Positions 22,726 through 40,488 of a stretch of DNA of 64,000 nucleotides are shown piece after piece. Where the stretch lies: assembly GCF_001424265.1 (NCBI RefSeq), contig NZ_LMOV01000010.1, positions 1-64,000 of the forward strand. Direction: 5' to 3'. The notes beneath the pieces are model-generated. The model made no database searches and was not told the origin of the DNA. It worked only from the letters and a program-made list of their open reading frames with translations. A program made the position numbers and the translations under genes. Within the stretch, counting starts at the first letter, position 1. Each line of letters begins with the position of its first letter. This stretch comes from Acidovorax sp. Leaf160. Its GTDB lineage: Bacteria > Pseudomonadota > Gammaproteobacteria > Burkholderiales > Burkholderiaceae_C.

Positions 22726-25700
22726 ATGGCTCCCGGGCCTGTTGCGGGTTGGGGATCGCGCCGCGTCGCCGCGCCATTGACCATGCGCATGCCGCCCGTT
22801 CCCACGCAGCCTGCGTGGCCCGAGCGGCCTGTCGATCCGGGCATTCCCGACACTTCTGACGATCCGGCATTCGATCAGCTGGCCCGGCTCGCGGCGCGTG
22901 TCTGCGGCATGCCGATGGCGGCCATCGTTTTTCACCGCCCTCCGGCGGCGGGCCATGACAGCGAAGGCGGCATCGGCAGCGGCATCGAATGGTGCAAGTC
23001 CGCACACGGCCTGCCGCGCTCCGCACTGGAAGGCCCGCCCGCGCTCTGGGCGCTCGCCCGCAGTGCCGCAGGTCGCGCCGAAGCGCGGGCCGCGCCCCAT
23101 GCCCGGATCGCCGGGGTGCCCAACGCCCGCGCCCACCGCACGCTGGCGTGCCATGCCATCGCGCAGCCCCCCTGGCAGGTGCGGGCCGTCGCCTGCGTGC
23201 CGCTCTGGTCGGCCGATGGCACGGCGGTGATCGGCGCGCTGGCGGTGATGGACACGCTGGAACGCGGGCTGCAGGCGCCGCAGCGCGAATCGCTGCGGAC
23301 CGTGGCGGATCAGCTGATGCTGCTGCTGGAACTGCGCCGCGCGCACCATGCCGAGGCCCGCCAGGCGGCGGAACGCGACCGTCTGTTGGCACAGCTGCAG
23401 ATGCAGAGCGAGGTCATGCGCAACGTGGCGCGCGTGGCGCGGGTCGGCGGCTGGCAGGTGGACCTGGCCAGCCGGGTGCTGTCGTGGTCGCCCGAGGTGG
23501 CCGCCGCCTACGAACTGCCCCTGCTGCAGGCCCCGCTGGAAGCCAGCCTGGCCATCTACCCGGAAGCGGAGCGGGCCACGGTGCGCTCTGCGTTCGAGGC
23601 CTGTGCGCAGCACGGCACCCCCATCGACCTGCAGATGCCGGTGACCATGCCCAACGGCCGCAGCTACCGCGTGCGCCTGGTGGCCCATGCGGTCCGCGAC
23701 GGGCGCGGCGAGATCACCCAGGTGCAGGGCACCTTCCTGGACGTGAGCGACAGCCATGCGGCCAAGGCCGCACGGGCCACCAGCGACGAACGCTTCCGCC
23801 TCGTGGCCCGTGCCACCACCGACGCGGTCTGGGACTGGGACCTGCTGACCGACGCGCTGTGGTGGAGCGAAGGCATAGAAACCCTGTTCGGCGTGCCGCG
23901 CCACCTGCTGGCGCCCGACATCACCTCCTGGACGGACCGACTGCATCCGCAAGAGCGCGCGGACGTGCTGCGGCGCATCCGCGCGGTGCAGGCCGGCACC
24001 GGCAATGCCTGGGCCGACGAATACCGCTTCCGCCGCTACGACGGCAGCTATGCCTGGGTCAGCGACCGCGGCTTCGTCATCCGCGAGGGCGAGCAGCAAC
24101 GCGCCGTGCGCATGGTGGGCGGCATGTCCGACATCAGCGAGCGGCGGCAGGCGGCGCTGCAGGCACAGCACGAAGCGCGCGCCCATGCGGAGCTGGTGCG
24201 GGTGCAGCAGCGAATGGCCTCGCTGGAGGTCCCCACCGCCGAGGTGCTGCAGCTCACCGCGGACGCCGCGATGGCGCTCACGCAGGCCGATGCCGCCGTG
24301 GTGGATCTGCGCGACGGCCAGCGGCTGCGCACCTGCGTTCGCGCCCAAGGCAGCGTGCCTGGCCTGGGGCCGGCGATGGGCGACACGGCGGAGCTGGAAA
24401 CCGGGCCGGCCAGCGGCGCGTGCTGGCTCGCCGTGCCCGTGCGGGCGGGCGAGGAGGTACCGGGCCGGCTCCGGGTGCTGGCCCGGCGCGAGGGCACGTT
24501 CACTCCGCGCCATGCCGGCCTGCTGCAGACGCTCGCCGACTCGCTGGCCAGCACGCTGCAGCTGCGCGACGTCGAGTCGCGGCTGCGCGCCTCGGAGCAG
24601 CAGTACCGCGCGCTGTTCGCCGACCATCCGCAGCCGATGTGGGTGTACGAATGCGGCACGCTGCGCATCCTTGCCGCGAACCACGCCATGGTGCGGCACT
24701 ACGGTTATGCGGAGAGCGAGCTGCGGTCGATGACGATGCTGGACCTGGCCGTGCCCGAGGAGCGCGAAGCCATGGCGACCCTGCTGCGCGGCATCGCCCC
24801 CGACGCCCGCACCTTCGCCGCGCACCGCCGCCATGTGCGGCGCGACGGCACGCTGCTGGACATGGAGGTGTATGCCGGGGGCACGCACTTCGCCGGGCGC
24901 CTGGCGCGCCAGGTGCTGGGCAACGACGTGACCGGCCGGCTGCGCGCCGAACGTGAACTGGCGCGCGTGGGCCGCGCCCAGCGGCTGCTGAGCGCCGTCA
25001 ACGAGACCCTGGTGCGCGCCACTGCCGAGTCGGAAGTGCTGCATGCCGTCTGCCGCGTGGCGGTGGACATCGGCGGCTACCGCATGGGCTGGGTGGGCAT
25101 GGCGCGCGACGATGCCGCCCAGTCGATCGAGATCGTGACCCACGCCGGCCACAACGATCAGTTCGTCGAGCAGCTGGACCTGAGCTGGAACGGGGAGACG
25201 CCGGGCGGCTTCGGCCCGGCGGGCGTGTGCATCCGCAGCGGCCGCACGGTGATCGTGCGCGACGTGCGCCGCGCCCCCATCTTCACCGGCTGGTTCGAAC
25301 GCATGCACGCGCACGGCTTCCACGCCGTGGTGTGCCTGCCGCTCAGCGATGCGCAGCGCACCTTCGGCGTGCTGTATCTCTATGCGCCCGAGGTGCTGCA
25401 CCTGGGCGCGGAGGAAACGCAGCTGCTGGAGTCGCTCGCCAACGACGTGGCCTTCGGCATCACGAGCCTGCGCGCCCGCAGCGAGCAGCAGCATCTGCAG
25501 GACATGGTGCTCAAGGTGGCGTCGGCCGTGTCGGCCGGCACCGGCGAGCAGTTCTTCCAGCAGCTGGCGCGCAACATGGCCGACGTGCTGGGCGCGCAGG
25601 TCGCCTGCGTGGCGCGCCTGCTGCCGCCCGCGCCCGGCGAGCCGGCGCGCGTGCGCACGCTGGCGCTGGTGCAGGACGGGGTGGTGCAGCCGGCATTCGA

Positions 25701-27660
25701 GTACCTGATCGCCGGCACGCCGTGCGAGCCGTTGCTGACGCAGCGCCACCACATCGTGCCGGCGCAGGCCGCGCAGCTGTATGCGGCGGTGCCGGCATTC
25801 GCCGCCCTGCAGGCGCAAAGCTATGTGGGCTACCAGCTGACCGGCAACGCCGGGCAGGTGGCGGGCCTGGTGTTCGTGACGTTCCGCGAACCGCTGGCAC
25901 GGCCCGAGGTGGTGCTGCACACCCTGCAGATCTTCGCCGCGCGCGCGGCGGCCGAGATCGAGCGGCAGAGCTCGGACACGCGCATCCGCCAGCAGGCCTC
26001 GCTGCTGGACAAGGCGCGCGACGCGATCATCGTGCGCGACCTGAACCACTGCATCACGTTCTGGAACCAGGGCGCGGAGCGCATGTACGGCTGGACCCAG
26101 CAGGAAGTGCTGGGACGCTCCATCGAAAGCCTGCTCTACCAGGACACGCAGGATTTCCGCCATGCCACGCAGTCGACGCTGGAGCATGGCGAGTGGACGG
26201 GCGAGATCCTGCAATACGACCGCGACGGCACCGCGCTGGAGGTGGAAGGCCGCTGGACGCTGGTGTGCGACGAGCAGGGAGCGCCCGAGTCGGTGCTGGC
26301 CATCAACAGCGACATCCGCCAGCGCAAGGCGACCGAGCGCGAGATCCAGCGGCTGGCGTTCTACGACCCGCTCACCGGCCTGCCCAACCGCATGCTGCTG
26401 ATGGACCGCATCGACCACGCCCTGGCGATGGCGCAGCGCCGGAACATGGCGGGTGCGGTGCTGTTCATCGACCTGGACAACTTCAAGACGCTGAACGACA
26501 CGCTGGGCCACGACAAGGGCGACCTGTTGCTGCAGCAGGTCGCCCAGCGGCTCACCACCTGCGTGCGCGGCGTGGACACGGTGGCGCGCCTGGGCGGCGA
26601 CGAGTTCGTGGTGATGGTGGAAGAACTCAGCGCCGAGCCGGACGAACTGGCCCGGCACGCCCGCCAGGTCGGCGAGAAGGTGCTGTCGGTGCTGGCCGCG
26701 CCCTATGCGCTGGCCGGCTACCAGTACAGCAGCACGCCCAGCATCGGCATCGCGCCCTTCACCGGCGCGCACACCAGCGTCGGCGAAGTGCTGAAGCAGG
26801 CCGACCTGGCCATGTACCAGGCCAAGACGGCGGGCCGCAACACGCTGCGCTTCTTCGACCCCGGCATGCAGGCGGTGGTGAGCGCCCGCGCCACGCTGGA
26901 GTCCGACCTGCGCACCGCACTGGCACAGGAAGAATTCCTGCTGCACTACCAGCCCCAGGTGGACCACCACGGCCATGTGGTGGGCGTGGAGGCGCTGCTG
27001 CGCTGGGGCCAGCCCGCGCGCGGCATGGTGCCGCCCCATGAATTCATTCCGCTGGCGGAGGAAACCGGGCTGATCCTGCCGCTGGGCCGCTGGGTGCTGC
27101 ACACCGCCTGCAAGATGCTGGCGAGCTGGCGCGACGAGCCCGACCTGGCGCACCTGACCATGGCCGTGAACGTGAGCTCGCGCCAGTTCCGCCACGCCGG
27201 CTTCGTGGACGACGTGGCACGGGTGCTGGCCATCACGGGCGCGCCGTCCGCCCAGCTGAAGCTGGAACTGACCGAAACCCTGCTGGTGGAAGACATGGAA
27301 ACCACCATCGCCACCATGTCTGCCCTGCGCAGCTACGGGGTGCGGTTCTCGCTCGACGACTTCGGCACTGGCTACTCCTCGCTCAGCTATCTCAAGCGCA
27401 TGCCGCTGGACCAGCTGAAGATCGACCGCAGCTTCGTGGCCGACCTGCTGACCGATCCGAACGACGCCGCCATCGTGGACACCATCATCGCGCTGTCGCG
27501 CAGCCTGGGCCTGCAGGTGATCGCAGAAGGTGTCGAGACGCGCGAACAGCGCGACCGTCTGGCGCAGGCGGGCTGCCGGTTCTATCAGGGCTACTTCTTC
27601 AGCCGGCCCCTGGCGGCCGATGCTCTCGATCGCTTGCTCCACCCCGACCGGGATATTTGA
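22726..27660 (+). CDS. Multi-sensor diguanylate cyclase/phosphodiesterase (GAF-PAS array, GGDEF-EAL)
   Basis: 1644-residue cytoplasmic c-di-GMP enzyme with no membrane segment. Approximate order: GAF (30-200), PAS (225-340), PAS (345-480), GAF-like (485-610), PAS (625-745), GAF (760-920), GAF (925-1085), PAS (1085-1205), GGDEF (1210-1375), EAL (1395-1640). The cyclase signature RLGGDEF is intact (about 1287), as is the phosphodiesterase signature EALLRW (about 1420) with DDFGTGYSSLSYLKRMP and LKIDRSFV, so both activities look possible. The start at 22726 has no clear ribosome-binding site; 22783 is an alternative. The inputs are unknown. Confidence 0.92.
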   Translation: MAPGPVAGWGSRRVAAPLTMRMPPVPTQPAWPERPVDPGIPDTSDDPAFDQLARLAARVCGMPMAAIVFHRPPAAGHDSEGGIGSGIEWCKSAHGLPRSALEGPPALWALARSAAGRAEARAAPHARIAGVPNARAHRTLACHAIAQPPWQVRAVACVPLWSADGTAVIGALAVMDTLERGLQAPQRESLRTVADQLMLLLELRRAHHAEARQAAERDRLLAQLQMQSEVMRNVARVARVGGWQVDLASRVLSWSPEVAAAYELPLLQAPLEASLAIYPEAERATVRSAFEACAQHGTPIDLQMPVTMPNGRSYRVRLVAHAVRDGRGEITQVQGTFLDVSDSHAAKAARATSDERFRLVARATTDAVWDWDLLTDALWWSEGIETLFGVPRHLLAPDITSWTDRLHPQERADVLRRIRAVQAGTGNAWADEYRFRRYDGSYAWVSDRGFVIREGEQQRAVRMVGGMSDISERRQAALQAQHEARAHAELVRVQQRMASLEVPTAEVLQLTADAAMALTQADAAVVDLRDGQRLRTCVRAQGSVPGLGPAMGDTAELETGPASGACWLAVPVRAGEEVPGRLRVLARREGTFTPRHAGLLQTLADSLASTLQLRDVESRLRASEQQYRALFADHPQPMWVYECGTLRILAANHAMVRHYGYAESELRSMTMLDLAVPEEREAMATLLRGIAPDARTFAAHRRHVRRDGTLLDMEVYAGGTHFAGRLARQVLGNDVTGRLRAERELARVGRAQRLLSAVNETLVRATAESEVLHAVCRVAVDIGGYRMGWVGMARDDAAQSIEIVTHAGHNDQFVEQLDLSWNGETPGGFGPAGVCIRSGRTVIVRDVRRAPIFTGWFERMHAHGFHAVVCLPLSDAQRTFGVLYLYAPEVLHLGAEETQLLESLANDVAFGITSLRARSEQQHLQDMVLKVASAVSAGTGEQFFQQLARNMADVLGAQVACVARLLPPAPGEPARVRTLALVQDGVVQPAFEYLIAGTPCEPLLTQRHHIVPAQAAQLYAAVPAFAALQAQSYVGYQLTGNAGQVAGLVFVTFREPLARPEVVLHTLQIFAARAAAEIERQSSDTRIRQQASLLDKARDAIIVRDLNHCITFWNQGAERMYGWTQQEVLGRSIESLLYQDTQDFRHATQSTLEHGEWTGEILQYDRDGTALEVEGRWTLVCDEQGAPESVLAINSDIRQRKATEREIQRLAFYDPLTGLPNRMLLMDRIDHALAMAQRRNMAGAVLFIDLDNFKTLNDTLGHDKGDLLLQQVAQRLTTCVRGVDTVARLGGDEFVVMVEELSAEPDELARHARQVGEKVLSVLAAPYALAGYQYSSTPSIGIAPFTGAHTSVGEVLKQADLAMYQAKTAGRNTLRFFDPGMQAVVSARATLESDLRTALAQEEFLLHYQPQVDHHGHVVGVEALLRWGQPARGMVPPHEFIPLAEETGLILPLGRWVLHTACKMLASWRDEPDLAHLTMAVNVSSRQFRHAGFVDDVARVLAITGAPSAQLKLELTETLLVEDMETTIATMSALRSYGVRFSLDDFGTGYSSLSYLKRMPLDQLKIDRSFVADLLTDPNDAAIVDTIIALSRSLGLQVIAEGVETREQRDRLAQAGCRFYQGYFFSRPLAADALDRLLHPDRDI

Positions 27661-27701: not shown

Positions 27702-27810
27702 AGATCCAAAAACCCTCCAGCCTTTTCGGAGCCGTCAGGTTCATTCCTGGGCGCTATTTCCTGCAAGGCCGTCCTGGACTGCGGACTTTCTCCCTGGTAT
27801 TCCTTCTTTT

Positions 27811-28020
27811 CTTTCTATAAATCCATAGTGGTAGTAGTAAGGACCGGCCAGTTCTGTGGATAACCCGGCTTTATCCAATCGCCACCGCAACTTGCCGGCC
27901 CGATAACGGTGTGGGCCGACCGGCCCTGCTGCCGTACCTCCAACGGGGATAAACCGCAGGCGCGCGCTTTTTCTGTGGATAACCGCCGAGTTGTGCCAGA
28001 ACTGTCCCCAGCCTTGTCCG
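27811..28020 (+). other. Origin-like module, copy A
   Basis: In order: AT-rich CTATAAAT (27815-27822); trio run TAGTGGTAGTAGTAA (27826-27840); exact DnaA box TGTGGATAA (27855-27863, reverse of TTATCCACA); partial box TTATCCAAT (27871-27879); GGGGATAAA (27945-27953); second exact TGTGGATAA (27974-27982, 119 bp after the first); and TTGTCC near the end. AT element, trios and adjacent box resemble the basal unwinding element described for bacterial origins. Confidence 0.6.
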
Positions 28021-28420
28021 CCATTCCTGTCTGACGCGGCGGTTTTGGACGGATCGAGCGGGGCTCGGCGCACGCGAGTCCACCTCGGCGCGTTTTGGGC
28101 CGCCTGTGCGCGCCGGCAGATCTGGCGATGCGGCTGATACGGCTGATGCGGCGCCGCAGCTTACGCGCGGGCTGTTCCGTTGACCGGCACTCCGATGGGC
28201 GCGCGCTGATCGGGGTGCAGAGTGCCGATGCAGCGCGTTTTCCGGACCGGGCGCTTGCTCCATCTGGGCGGAAAGCTATGAAAAAAATAGCAATCCCCCT
28301 TTTTTCTTTTGCGGGCCGCCCCGAACGGGTCGCGTTGTTTTCCCGCCCGCCCTTTCTCGGCCGCCGCTCCCATCGGCCTGCGGAACCGGCGCGGCCTTGA
28401 AGTTCGGTTGTTCTTCTAAA

Positions 28421-28632
28421 GGCTTTATAAATAGATAGCAGTAGTAGTAGAGCAGCCGTTTTTTTGTGGACAAGGCGCATTTGTCCAATGGCGACAGGGC
28501 TTTGCGTGGCCGCCAACCCTGTGGCCCCAACCCGGGAGTGGCAGCGGTCTGGGCGATAACAACTTCGGCGCACCGCCATCTTCTGTGGATAAGTGCCCGG
28601 TTGTTCGGAAATAATCCCCATGGTTGTCCATA
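28421..28632 (+). other. Origin-like module, copy B
   Basis: Same order and spacing as copy A, offset by exactly 610 bp: TTATAAATAGATAG (28425-28438); trio run GTAGTAGTAG (28441-28450); near-consensus box TGTGGACAA (28465-28473); partial box TTGTCCAAT (28481-28489); exact TGTGGATAA (28584-28592, again 119 bp after the first); and TTGTCCATA (28624-28632). Confidence 0.6.
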
Positions 28633-28659
28633 GGTCGTTCAGGCGGGTGCAAAAAAGGC

Positions 28660-28727: not shown

Positions 28728-29321
28728 TCAGAAGTGGTAGCCGTAGCGCAGCTGCACCAGGTTCTCGCCGGGGTTGGGATGCTTGATGCCGGCGTTCGAC
28801 AGATGCTGCACCCGCAGCGATACCTCGTGACGGCGCTGCTCGCCGAAGTTCACGCCGAAGCCGACATGCGAGGCGAAATTGAAGCGGGTGCTGAATTCCT
28901 TGCGGTCGGTGACGAAGCGCTTGCTGGCCACCGTCGCGCCGATGCCGCCTTCGAAGAACCAGGCCGAGCGGCCCTGGTCCGGCCGCAGCCGCAGGGTGGG
29001 CGTGACGCCCAGCAGGTAGGAATGGCTGTAGCTGCCGGGCTCGCCGTCGAACGACCAGCGGCTGGCGTAGACGTCCCAGTGGCCACGGACTTCGCTGCCC
29101 CAGAGGTCGGTGCGCCAGGAATTCCACGGCAGGGTGGCGCCGAGGGTGATGGCGTCGGTGCCGTGTTCGCCCCGGCTGCCTTGCAGGTAGACGGAGGGGT
29201 TGTGGACGGCGTCGTTGGAAGCCGCGGTTTGCGCTGCGGCGCGCAGCGGCGCGGCCAGGGCCAGCAGGGCCAGTACGGGGGCGAACCGCTGAACCGGCAG
29301 GCGGCGAAGGGAAGTGAACAT
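28728..29321 (-). CDS. PagL-like lipid A 3-O-deacylase (acyloxyacyl hydrolase family)
   Basis: 197 residues from ATG 29321, with an N-terminal signal peptide (LLALAAPLRAAAQ). The mature part has alternating beta-strand patterns of a small outer-membrane barrel and ends in YGYHF, a C-terminal aromatic residue as in barrel proteins. The catalytic stretch RVQHLSNAGIKHPNPGEN contains the His-x-Ser and Glu of PagL, which removes the 3-O acyl chain of lipid A. A longer frame with a GTG at 29345 would lengthen the signal region; the ATG is preferred. Monocistronic with its own terminator. Confidence 0.88.
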   Translation of the reverse strand: MFTSLRRLPVQRFAPVLALLALAAPLRAAAQTAASNDAVHNPSVYLQGSRGEHGTDAITLGATLPWNSWRTDLWGSEVRGHWDVYASRWSFDGEPGSYSHSYLLGVTPTLRLRPDQGRSAWFFEGGIGATVASKRFVTDRKEFSTRFNFASHVGFGVNFGEQRRHEVSLRVQHLSNAGIKHPNPGENLVQLRYGYHF

Positions 29322-29340
29322 GGTGCGATGGGCGGTGAAG

Positions 29341-29355
29341 TACACAAATTGTGTA
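29341..29355. promoter_or_regulatory. Palindrome in the pagL-like promoter region
   Basis: TACACAA-A-TTGTGTA, perfect 7-bp arms with a 1-bp centre, 20 bp upstream of the chosen start. It is a plausible operator or part of the promoter; the binding protein is unknown. Confidence 0.45.
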
Positions 29356-29451: not shown

Positions 29452-30096
29452 TTACTGGGGCGCGGGGGTGGCGGAGGGCGCGCCGGGAGCCGTGGGTGCG
29501 CCGGTCATCGGCTTGCCATGGCGTGGGCCGTGGCGTGGGTCACCCCGGCCATCGGGGCCCGGGCCCTTGCCGCCCATCGGGCCGCCCATGTGGTGGCGGG
29601 CGGTTTCAGCGTCGAACACCTTTTGCTGGGCGGGCGTCAGCGCGGCGTAGAACGTCTTGGTCGCGTCGCCACGGCGGTCGGCTTCGGCGGCATGCTGGGC
29701 GCGCAGCGCCTTCATGCGGTCGATGCGCTCGGGCGTGGTCAGCTTTTCCAGGCTGCCGGGAGCCGGGCGGTCGGGGCCGGCGGCGGGCGGCTGCATGGCG
29801 GCGGTGTAGGTCGTCCAGGCCGATTCCTGCGCGGCCGTGAGCTGCAGCTTCTGCTTGAGCGCTGCCGCGTGGCGGGCCATGCGGTCCTTGCGTTCTTCGG
29901 GCGAGGGGGCACGGCGCTCCTGCAGGCGGGGTGCGGGCTTGGCGGCGTCGGCCGGTGCGGCGGCGGTCGGCGCGGTCACGGGCGCTGGAGCGGCGGGCGC
30001 TGCGGGCTGGGCGAAGGCGGGTGCCGCCAGGGCTGCTAGCAGGGCCGTGGCCAGCGTGGTGGATGCGAGGCGTTGTTGGAAGGTGGTGGTTGCCAT
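29452..30096 (-). CDS. Spy/CpxP-like periplasmic protein (LTxxQ motif)
   Basis: 214 residues from ATG 30096, which has GAAAGGA upstream. A signal peptide (ALLAALAAPAFAQ) is followed by an Ala/Pro-rich linker, then a helical domain with the family's LTxxQ motifs: QLTAAQESAW and ALTPAQQKVF. The tail is Gly/His/Pro-rich (MGGPMGGKGPGPDGRGD), possibly metal-binding. Spy and CpxP are periplasmic chaperone and stress-sensor proteins. This one is longer and the link is by motif only. Confidence 0.82.
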   Translation of the reverse strand: MATTTFQQRLASTTLATALLAALAAPAFAQPAAPAAPAPVTAPTAAAPADAAKPAPRLQERRAPSPEERKDRMARHAAALKQKLQLTAAQESAWTTYTAAMQPPAAGPDRPAPGSLEKLTTPERIDRMKALRAQHAAEADRRGDATKTFYAALTPAQQKVFDAETARHHMGGPMGGKGPGPDGRGDPRHGPRHGKPMTGAPTAPGAPSATPAPQ

Positions 30097-30481
30097 GATG
30101 CGGGTCCTTTCGGGGGGCGTCGTCTTGACGGGAGGGAGCGTTTCAGCGCCGGGGGTTGGAGGGGTGGTGTTCCCGGCGCCTGGAAGCCAGTGTCTGCCCG
30201 GCATGTATCGCCGGCGTGGCCGGATGATGTGGCTGTGTAAAGTTGTGCCAACGGCAGGTAGCGCACGCACCAGTGCCACCCTGGCCGCGCCGCCGGCCGA
30301 ACCGTGCCGGACGGCCTGATCCGCCCCTGGCGCCCGCCCCGCCTGCATCTCCTGCTATCGATTCCGATGCAGAACATCACGACCGTGGCCGGTAACCGGG
30401 CGTAGCACGCCACAGCGGCCGCCCGGCAGCGCCGACAATGGCGGCCGTTGAAGTCGATATCGCTGAAAAGGGTTTGAATCC
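30097..30481. other. Divergent intergenic region, 385 bp
   Basis: Lies between the Spy-like gene (minus) and rdgC (plus) and must hold both promoters. I see the two ribosome-binding sites but no clear -35/-10 pairs, repeats or RNA gene. Confidence 0.5.
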
Positions 30482-31474
30482 GTGTTCAAGAACATGATCG
30501 TGTACCGCATTGCCCCCGAATGGCAGGCGGAACTGACGCAGGTGGACGAGGCGCTCGCCAAGCTGCCTTTCGCCGAGTGCGGCGCCACGCAGGAAAAGTC
30601 CATCGGCTGGGTGCCGCCGCGCGGCGAGGCGCACGGCCCCATGGCCGAATCGGTCGGCGGGCACTGGGTGCTGCGCTTCATGGTGGAAACCAAGGTGCTG
30701 CCCGGCTCGGTGCTGGCGCGCAAGGTGAAAGACAAGGCGGCCCGCATCGAGCAGGAGACCGGCCGCAAGCCCGGCAAGAAGGAATCGAAGGAGTTGAAGG
30801 AAGAGGCCAAGCTCGACCTGCTGCCCATGGCCTTCACCAAGCAGGGCTCGATGTGGGTGTGGATCGACCCGAAGGCGCATTTCCTGGTGCTGGACACGTC
30901 CTCCCAGGGCCGCGCCGACGAGGTGACGAGCCTGCTGGTCGAGGCGCTGCCCGGCCTGTCGGTGTCGCTGCTGGACACGCAGGCCAGCCCTCAGGCCGCC
31001 ATGTCGCACTGGCTCAAGGAGCAGGAGCCGCCCGCCGGTTTCAGCGTGGACCGCGAGTGCGAGCTGAAAAGCGCCGACGAGACCAAGGCCGTGGTGCGCT
31101 ATTCGCGCCACCCGCTCGACATCGAGGAAGTGCAGGCGCACATCGACGCCGGCAAGCTGCCCACCAAGCTGGCGCTGACCTGGAACGACCGCGTGTCCTT
31201 TTTGCTGACCGAGGGGCTGCAGCTCAAGAAGGTGTCGTTCCTCGACACGGTGTTCGAAGGCCAGGGCTCGGGCAAGGACGACGGCGGCTTCGACACCGAC
31301 GTGGCCATCGCCACGGGCGAGCTGTCGCAACTGATCCCCGACCTGATCGAGGCGCTGGGCGGCGAGGGCCGCACGGGGTTGGGCGGCGAGGGCCGCACGG
31401 GGTTGGGCGACGGCGCGCCGGCCGCGTCGGCGGCGCCCGCCCCGGCGGGCGAGAACGACGACGCACCGTTCTGA
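30482..31474 (+). CDS. rdgC: Recombination-associated protein RdgC
   Basis: Ring-forming DNA-binding protein that limits RecA activity. The 330-residue product begins MFKNMIVYRIAP and contains ESVGGHWVLRFMVETKVLPG, LPMAFTKQGSMWVWID and IDAGKLPTKLALTWNDRVSF, all RdgC signatures. It is longer than the ~303-residue E. coli protein because of a Gly/Ala-rich tail containing a perfect 8-residue tandem repeat GGEGRTGL. It starts with GTG; AAAAGGG lies 10 nt upstream. Confidence 0.95.
   Translation: MFKNMIVYRIAPEWQAELTQVDEALAKLPFAECGATQEKSIGWVPPRGEAHGPMAESVGGHWVLRFMVETKVLPGSVLARKVKDKAARIEQETGRKPGKKESKELKEEAKLDLLPMAFTKQGSMWVWIDPKAHFLVLDTSSQGRADEVTSLLVEALPGLSVSLLDTQASPQAAMSHWLKEQEPPAGFSVDRECELKSADETKAVVRYSRHPLDIEEVQAHIDAGKLPTKLALTWNDRVSFLLTEGLQLKKVSFLDTVFEGQGSGKDDGGFDTDVAIATGELSQLIPDLIEALGGEGRTGLGGEGRTGLGDGAPAASAAPAPAGENDDAPF
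31358..31405. repeat. 24-bp tandem duplication in rdgC
   Basis: Two perfect adjacent copies of a 24-mer (31358-31381 and 31382-31405) that add GGEGRTGL twice to the RdgC tail, in frame. Confidence 0.95.
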
Positions 31475-31658
31475 GCCGGTGAGCCCGGCGTGGCCCACGC
31501 CGGCCGGCGGCAGCGCGCCAATAGCCATGATGCCGCCCATGCCTTGCACGCGGGTGGGCGGCGGCGGCTCTATAGTCCCTGCCCGATAGCCAGATCACTT
31601 GCCCTTCTTCGTCAGGTGCGGTCCAGCGAGACGACACCAACGACATCGAGGGGCTGGC

Positions 31659-36073: not shown

Positions 36074-36082
36074 TTATCCACA
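36074..36082 (+). other. Exact DnaA box in the arsR promoter region
   Basis: TTATCCACA, opposite in orientation to the exact boxes at 27.8-28.6 kb. It may be coincidental. Confidence 0.4.
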
Positions 36083-39600: not shown

Positions 39601-40488
39601 ATGCCAAACACCGCCCTGCTGCTGCGCCCACCCGCCGCCCGGCCGCGCGCGCGGCCCCTGTCCTACGTCGATTCGCTCACGCCACACCTCTTCGTGCCGA
39701 GCGCGGCGCGGCCGGTGCGGGCCAAGGTGCGCGCGCTGAGCGCCGACACGCAGGTGATGCCGCACAGCCATCCCTGGGCGCAGGTGGCGATCTCGACCCA
39801 GGGCGTGATCCGGCTGACGGTGGCAGGCGGCACCTACATCGTGCCGCCCTCGCGCGCGGTGTGGATTCCGCCTGGCGTGGAGCATGCGGTGACCATGGTG
39901 GAGGACGCCGATCTGCGCACGCTCTACTTCCACCAGCCGCGCGGCCGCTGCGGCCCCGGCGTGGCGCGGGCCGACGAGGCGCCCTGGCGCCAGTGCCGCG
40001 TGCTGGAGATGTCCGAGCTGCTGCGAGCCCTGGTCTGCGAGATGCCCGCCGAGAACGACGACGCCCCGCCCTTGCCGCTCGAGGCGCTGCGCCGAGAGCG
40101 CCACCTGAGCGCGCTGATCCTCGAAGAACTGCGCCGCGCCAGCGCCGTGCGCCTGGGCGTGCCGCTGCCGCGCGACAAGCGCCTGCGCCATCTGTGCGAG
40201 GCGGTGCTGGCCGATCCGACCCGCCACGAGGCGCTGGCCGAATGGGCGCGCGACACCGGCGCCAGCCCGCGCACGGTGGCGCGGCTTTTCCGGCAGGAGT
40301 TATCCACAACCTTCACGCAATGGCGCCAGCAGGTGCTGCTGGCCCAGGCGGTGGCGCTGGCCGCGGGGCGCAAGCCCGTCAACCAGATCGCGGCCGAGCT
40401 GGGCTACGCCAGCCCCAGCGCCTTCAGCGCCATGGTGCGGCGCGCGGTGGGCATGCCGCCGGCGCGCTTCCTGGGGCTGCAGCAGTGA
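39601..40488 (+). CDS. AraC-family regulator with cupin sensor domain
   Basis: 295 residues. The N-terminal cupin (about 45-115: MPHSHPWAQVAISTQGVIRL, WIPPGVEHAV) would bind a small molecule. The C-terminal double helix-turn-helix (about 200-290: ASPRTVARLFRQEL, PVNQIAAELGYASPSAFSAM) is typical AraC. It diverges from the MFS gene with 65 bp between starts, so the pair probably forms an inducible export system. Confidence 0.92.
   Translation: MPNTALLLRPPAARPRARPLSYVDSLTPHLFVPSAARPVRAKVRALSADTQVMPHSHPWAQVAISTQGVIRLTVAGGTYIVPPSRAVWIPPGVEHAVTMVEDADLRTLYFHQPRGRCGPGVARADEAPWRQCRVLEMSELLRALVCEMPAENDDAPPLPLEALRRERHLSALILEELRRASAVRLGVPLPRDKRLRHLCEAVLADPTRHEALAEWARDTGASPRTVARLFRQELSTTFTQWRQQVLLAQAVALAAGRKPVNQIAAELGYASPSAFSAMVRRAVGMPPARFLGLQQ
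40300..40308 (+). other. Exact DnaA box inside the AraC-type gene
   Basis: TTATCCACA in the coding sequence of the DNA-binding domain. It encodes part of QELSTTF, so it may be coincidental. Confidence 0.3.

Follow-up and report, generated by a model that had tools for sequence, protein, structure and literature searches.

The window analysed here, a stretch of 64,000 nucleotides from Acidovorax sp. Leaf160, carries two direct-repeat modules at a constant offset of 610 bp. They lie between a gene for a PAS/GAF/GGDEF/EAL protein (22726..27660, + strand) and a PagL (lipid A 3-O-deacylase family) gene (28728..29345, − strand), which is followed by an LTXXQ-motif protein gene (29452..30348, − strand) and rdgC (30482..31474, + strand; Pfam E 2.4e-108), all four being supported by Pfam and synteny. 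The upstream copy, candidate oriC module 1 (27784..28023, + strand), scored 186.5 bits with nhmmer, and the downstream copy, candidate oriC module 2 (28401..28638, + strand), 173.5 bits; R1, a sequence-only module model built from an alignment of 27 modules and applied at a cut-off of E 1e-4, recovered them in their own genome at E 6.1e-36 and E 2.3e-38, respectively, the training sets of both models having included the two modules themselves. The RdgC encoded in the window is 94% identical to that of Paracidovorax wautersii over 292 residues, suggesting that the window is Paracidovorax-like. ARAGORN placed a tRNA-Pro at 31398-31489, overlapping the 3' end of rdgC, which is probably a false positive at a repetitive coding end.

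In each module an AT-rich element is followed by a run of GTA trios, a DnaA box lies beyond a spacer of 15 bp, and a second box follows at a distance of 119 bp; the motifs, as read from the sequence, span 27816-27982 and 28426-28592. Motif searches located the AT-rich TATAAAT, a candidate unwinding element, at 27816..27822 in module 1 and at 28426..28432 in module 2, and the (GTA)3 DnaA-trio run GTAGTAGTA at 27831..27839 and 28441..28449, all on the + strand; A+T content reaches 15/20 at 27800-27819. The trio-proximal DnaA box of module 1 is TTATCCACA on the − strand (27855..27863; TGTGGATAA at 27855), and that of module 2 is TTGTCCACA with one mismatch (28465..28473, − strand; TGTGGACAA at 28465), the spacers occupying 27840-27854 and 28450-28464. 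Read outward from the box, the TAG trios on the + strand correspond to 3'-GAT-5', beginning after the 15-bp spacer and followed by the AT element. Both distal boxes are TTATCCACA on the − strand (27974..27982, TGTGGATAA at 27974; 28584..28592, TGTGGATAA at 28584), each 119 bp from its proximal box, and copy 1 thus has perfect boxes at both places. Partial boxes of the TTNTCCAAT type were read at the same relative place on the + strand of both modules (TTATCCAAT at 27871..27879 and TTGTCCAAT at 28481..28489), and module 1 has a central GGGGATAA site (27945..27952, + strand), which takes the form GGGGA(C/T)AA in aligned module-1 orthologues of the genus.

An earlier, sequence-only reading of this DNA had described two diverged copies with these motifs in fixed order and places, and all of them were found, at offset 610 throughout. 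Its count of 117 identical positions out of 210 between 27811-28020 and the copy 610 bp on was reproduced, and this placement ranks first among the 63,789 + strand placements in the window, itself included (mean 55.8, sd 6.2, next best 83). Two points in it need correcting: the module extends to about 28638, with a central GGGGATAA-type site in copy 1, and the partial box that it listed as TT(A/G)TCCAAT, present in both window copies, is not kept in the first copies of most relatives. The drift that it noted outside the motifs holds between genomes too: in comparisons with seven members of the genus, counting gaps as differences, identity was 58-70% in the modules, 27-43% in the inter-module spacer, and 38-53% in the flanks.

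DnaA boxes are denser at the module pair than in the genome background. Exact TTATCCACA occurs 14 times in the genome (both strands, 4.72 Mb, 29 contigs), three of these inside this 0.74 kb, and the combination GTAGTAGTA-N5-30-TGTGGA occurs twice genome-wide, both times in the module pair. Further exact TTATCCACA copies were seen at window positions 36074-36082 and 40300-40308, placing five of the 14 within 13 kb. An Rfam search of the window returned no match.

The anatomy of the module is maintained among relatives. Among 60 modules from 30 sources, 57 have the second box at 118-120 bp, where the second box was taken as the best one within +105 to +134 and ties were resolved to +119. A site resembling the IHF consensus WATCAANNNNTTR with at most one mismatch lies exactly +27 from the first box in 22 of the 60 modules (the next offset accounts for 6/60), and a by-eye reading of the window found this site degenerate, with five mismatches in copy 1 and four in copy 2. 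As set out in the portion of the published trio survey available to us, the criterion for a basal unwinding element (BUS) is at least three trios (3'-NAN-5') no more than 16 bp from a DnaA box, with 3'-GAT-5' as the trio consensus (PMC8287927). Both copies have three GTA repeats and a 15-bp spacer, which backs the proposed assignment of each as a putative basal unwinding element.

Modules of this type are nearly universal in the family. In a sample of 250 genomes from the family of the window, where training genomes are bound to match, R1 had matches in 243; in a sample of 250 from the order it had matches in 74, of which nine belong to the family. A hand count over the 250 family genomes gave one match in 159, two in 74, three in ten, and none in seven, under strict filters that may lose weak copies; with 159 genomes at a single match, the pair is evidently not required. 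The window's own genome has exactly two R1 matches, both of them the window modules. Among 37 named loci, 15 have two like-oriented modules inside 1.6 kb, 11 have one (some at the edge of the locus), and the remaining 11, which are Oxalobacteraceae-like, gave weaker matches. A pattern search of named loci found the pair in Paracidovorax wautersii, Acidovorax, Simplicispira, Curvibacter, Delftia acidovorans, and Comamonas composti.

Some matches fell outside these groups. A genome of another family in the order (G319, C1:1853645-1855270) has three tandem module-like matches about 346 kb from dnaA. Two further records, titled Pantoea sp. 18069 (L187) and Chitinophaga pinensis MAG (L252), carry modules of this type with matching neighbours, and given the identity of those neighbours (74% for rdgC in L187 and 84% for aroG in L252), the record names or the binning look wrong.

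The surroundings of the modules are conserved as well. The gene order GGDEF/EAL - module(s) - PagL - LTXXQ - rdgC is found again both within the genus and outside it, and displaced modules often adjoin rdgC, G023 being an exception to the rdgC-side neighbourhood; in G020 and G102 the gap between the GGDEF/EAL and PagL genes holds one module, with a further module 4-9 kb on. Loss of the motif pattern in close relatives that keep the flanking genes had been put forward as an outcome that would speak against the locus, and the genus members examined show the opposite. The sequence-only reading had also reported no dnaA nearby, in agreement with the position of the genome's own dnaA on a different contig (C5). 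By eye, the rpmH-dnaA gap of this genome has one perfect box plus CTATCCACA and lacks a trio run, and the dnaA promoter region was rejected as a candidate oriC on that basis.

In other genomes, homologous modules lie inside the dnaA-dnaN gap. This placement was established by tblastn in G117, G124, G176, and G052, the last belonging to another family, and is suggested by distance only in G089 and G186; of these six genomes, only G052 was in the training set. The single dnaA-dnaN gap of G176 holds two convergent modules (L340 8201-8409 and 8704-8468). In 33 family genomes picked for their listed positions rather than at random, in which module and dnaA were placeable on one contig, the module was adjacent to dnaA in five and about 17-300 kb away in 27, and the remaining one, G259, was left unassigned because the pair spans the contig end.

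Two origin-associated signals were considered, parS sites and strand composition. A search with the parS consensus matched in 11 of 12 genomes (G006 had no match). In all ten genomes with dnaA, module, and parS on one contig the order was dnaA - module - parS, and parS was closer to the module (about 14-48 kb) than to dnaA (about 61-171 kb); these ten genomes share gene order and are not independent events. In the window's own genome, parS is on a contig other than that of the module pair. In six of six relatives, the module gave a better fit than dnaA for a gene-strand-corrected GC3-skew step, with fit gains (module / dnaA) of 54,385 / 11,949 in G034, 13,190 / 2,350 in G004, 2,095 / 238 in G023, 20,592 / 11,582 in G019, 5,293 / 677 in G006, and 9,932 / 9,001 in G013. 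The best point lay less than 5 kb from a module in G034 and G004 and 32-64 kb away in the other four relatives, and was closer to dnaA than to the module in G013, G019, and G023.

A skew minimum at the module, which had been proposed as a check on the locus, is seen in some relatives but not in the contig of the window itself. In G034, the lowest point of the plain cumulative GC skew is 2.7 kb away from the second module and 118 kb from dnaA. Twenty coarse samples of this genome give negative skew between 0.1 and 2.26 Mb, positive skew between 2.86 and 5.15 Mb, and negative skew again at 5.42 Mb, the pattern that an origin at about 2.5 Mb would produce. The plain minima of G023 and G004 were not at the module in the stretches used, and ten sparse 6-kb samples of G237, with its module and dnaA 300 kb apart, lend the module no support, being uninformative or slightly contrary. 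In the contig of the window, which offers only 71.5 kb, GC3 skew has no origin-type switch at 28 kb, and the fitted step is even negative.

Taken with the comparisons above, the locus is very probably where this Paracidovorax/Acidovorax-like bacterium has its main oriC, made up of two complete tandem modules and shifted away from dnaA into the rdgC area. The sequence-only reading had offered three options, namely a chromosomal origin separated from dnaA, an accessory or alternative origin, and a DnaA-binding control locus. The first is well supported by the homologues in dnaA-dnaN gaps, the near-universal presence in the family, parS, and, less sharply, the skew of relatives, and the last has become unlikely.

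The two copies form separate lineages. A tree built from 20 modules of ten genomes separated all first from all second copies with support of 100/99 and in 100% of 200 bootstrap trees, which indicates that the duplication predates the split of these genomes and that the copies have not been homogenised. The copies also differ in their boxes in this set: among first copies, 9/10 have TGTGGATAA (perfect) as proximal box and 7/10 have an imperfect distal box, and among second copies, 10/10 have TGTGGACAA as proximal box and 9/10 have TGTGGATAA (perfect) as distal box. A 60-row tree was less clean than the 20-row tree, and its bootstrap was not settled. There, the main copy-1 group excludes G004_1, G019_1, and G266_1, and the copy-2 group takes in G023, G117, and G176. 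The two copies of one genome pair with each other in Simplicispira, G023, G176, and G042, so later duplications or conversions have also occurred. The distance between modules is variable among genomes.

For the mechanism, we infer DnaA binding, unwinding, firing, and a division of labour between the modules. DnaA-ATP would bind the trio-adjacent box, aided directly or via a loop by the box 119 bp away, and a DnaA filament would extend across the 15-bp spacer onto the GTA/TAG trios, stretching that strand; the TATAAAT element would then open, and the DnaB helicase would be loaded there. Opening would take place mainly in module 1, which has the perfect proximal box. In module 2 the proximal box is weakened and the distal one perfect; this module would keep DnaA alongside and may act as a second or regulatory opening site.

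How the two modules share this work within a displaced oriC can be envisaged in several ways. A single module may fire, with the other acting as a nearby DnaA-titration or regulatory site whose opening element would persist through descent alone; this overlaps with the oriC reading, of which it is a sub-case, and we regard it as a credible possibility, if somewhat short of an even chance. The box pattern specific to first and second copies in the ten genomes is consistent with it, as is the single match in most relatives under the hand count given above. However, the trios and the AT-rich element are kept in module 2 of the eight aligned second copies of the genus, and among genus members module 2 is conserved as well as module 1 (58-69% versus 59-70%), beyond the need of a mere box cluster. 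A doubled origin in the full sense, in which two anciently duplicated and specialised modules both open and both can start replication of one chromosome, conserved in Acidovorax/Delftia/Comamonas-type bacteria, is in our estimation rather unlikely, and we raise it tentatively. Somewhat more doubtful again is a further sub-case of the oriC reading, that of two independent adjacent origins, either of which could start replication in any one cycle. Both modules have all parts of a basal unwinding element, and modules 2-20 kb apart still persist in G034, G165, G020, G026, and G076, which would suit independent origins, but at 610 bp a shared DnaA complex is equally likely.

Loci of the datA and DARS type, which alter the nucleotide state of DnaA or how much of it is free, carry DnaA boxes plus IHF sites, are distinct from the origin, and are not known to have an opening element. 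That the window modules are such a control locus and no origin would fit their distance from dnaA, their make-up of boxes and an IHF-like site, and the lack of a skew switch in their own contig, but trios and an AT element are found in both copies, and the modules are present almost throughout the family. We set this explanation aside as very improbable because homologues occupy the dnaA-dnaN gap of relatives and there is no further module match in the window's own genome. A resemblance by chance, or a local duplication that is recent and functionless, for which the unconserved inter-copy spacer might speak, is negligible in probability, being contradicted by the family-wide matches, by the placement ranking (117/210 versus 83 for the next placement), and by the age of the copy lineages with their support of 100/99.

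Other DnaA-box sites in the genome may have control functions of their own. Two boxes 323 bp apart, both in TCAACAAAGTTATCCACAGAAA, lie between hemE and priA (L007 7452-7460 and 7775-7783; own contig C28 292451 and 292774), and G004, G006, G013, G019, and G034 have box pairs spaced at 324-334 bp, about 0.5-0.6 Mb from the module. A hemE-adjacent putative origin has been listed in Ralstonia pickettii (Gao 2015; PMC4403523), and the hemE-priA pair may be the same site; a DARS- or datA-like role for it is a candidate worth testing. Three units 134-138 bp apart, each with TGGACAATCATGTGGATAA, were observed between a DUF427 gene and a ribBA-type gene (L006 10907, 11045, and 11179; own contig C14). 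Box pairs spaced at 135 bp recur in G004, G006, G013, and G019, and the three-unit array is a candidate DnaA control element. A second, weak DnaA-domain match (L002 1501-1677; own contig C24; E 6.1e-4) falls in a 339-aa frame, which is possibly, as a guess, an Hda-like regulator.

The individual module resembles known origins in several respects. The oriC of Escherichia coli is about 250 bp long and present in one copy, with an opening element beside a strong box, 13-mers, and an IHF-type site. The module is alike in its size of about 250 bp, in its opening element by a strong box, and, in the family consensus, in an IHF-type site near the box; it is unlike E. coli oriC in having a GTA run rather than 13-mers and two copies rather than one, and its IHF-like site is degenerate in the window. 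From the portions of the sources at hand, the BUS of Bacillus subtilis incC and its predicted relatives share with the module a DnaA box, a spacer of at most 16 bp, and 3'-GAT-5' trios, and the B. subtilis element likewise has proximal and distal box groups (PMC6669920, PMC8287927). As far as those portions describe it, the B. subtilis element uses boxes 6 and 7, in contrast to the one trio-adjacent box here, and the window differs further in having two complete tandem copies, away from dnaA.

Bipartite origins such as those of Helicobacter pylori and B. subtilis are similar in that two DnaA-box clusters make up one origin (PMC5043019, PMC4403523). In H. pylori, as the available section has it, the box clusters flank dnaA and oriC2 holds the opening site (PMC5043019). 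Unlike that arrangement, at least as described there, both window modules are full units, each with its own AT element and trios, and neither dnaA nor any conserved gene lies between them. In chromosome 1 of Cupriavidus metallidurans CH34, according to the accessible part of the report, the skew switch lies about 90 kb from dnaA, beside a 213-nt region with three perfect DnaA boxes (PMC2864759). A displaced skew switch in this order is thus already in print in that part of the report, which describes neither paired modules nor trios; the two loci are likened here by description (PMC2864759).

Chromosomes normally have a single origin, according to a survey that also lists a small number of putative double origins, for example in R. 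pickettii 12D (Gao 2015; PMC4403523). Those double origins are 150, 291, or 882 kb apart, flank a duplicated dnaA, or stem from a large duplication (M. bovis BCG Pasteur) (PMC4403523). They resemble the present case in having more than one origin-like region per chromosome, but none is an old tandem pair of one short module (PMC4403523). We found no published conserved tandem oriC pair in the literature searched, which comprised few subscription papers and did not include DoriC. The origin module itself is thus of an ordinary type; its doubling and its relocation are unusual, and the tandem pair is the apparently new part.

One origin per bacterial chromosome is the usual assumption. Here, two full modules, both equipped with an opening element and each showing a distinct arrangement of strong and weak boxes, have stood side by side since before the ten compared genomes parted, and the pair lets the role of a second opening site be asked, be it in timing, robustness, or the direction of helicase loading. 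If the reading of the locus as the displaced main oriC is true, placing the origin at dnaA by default would miss it by 17-300 kb in 27 of the 33 placeable genomes of the family.
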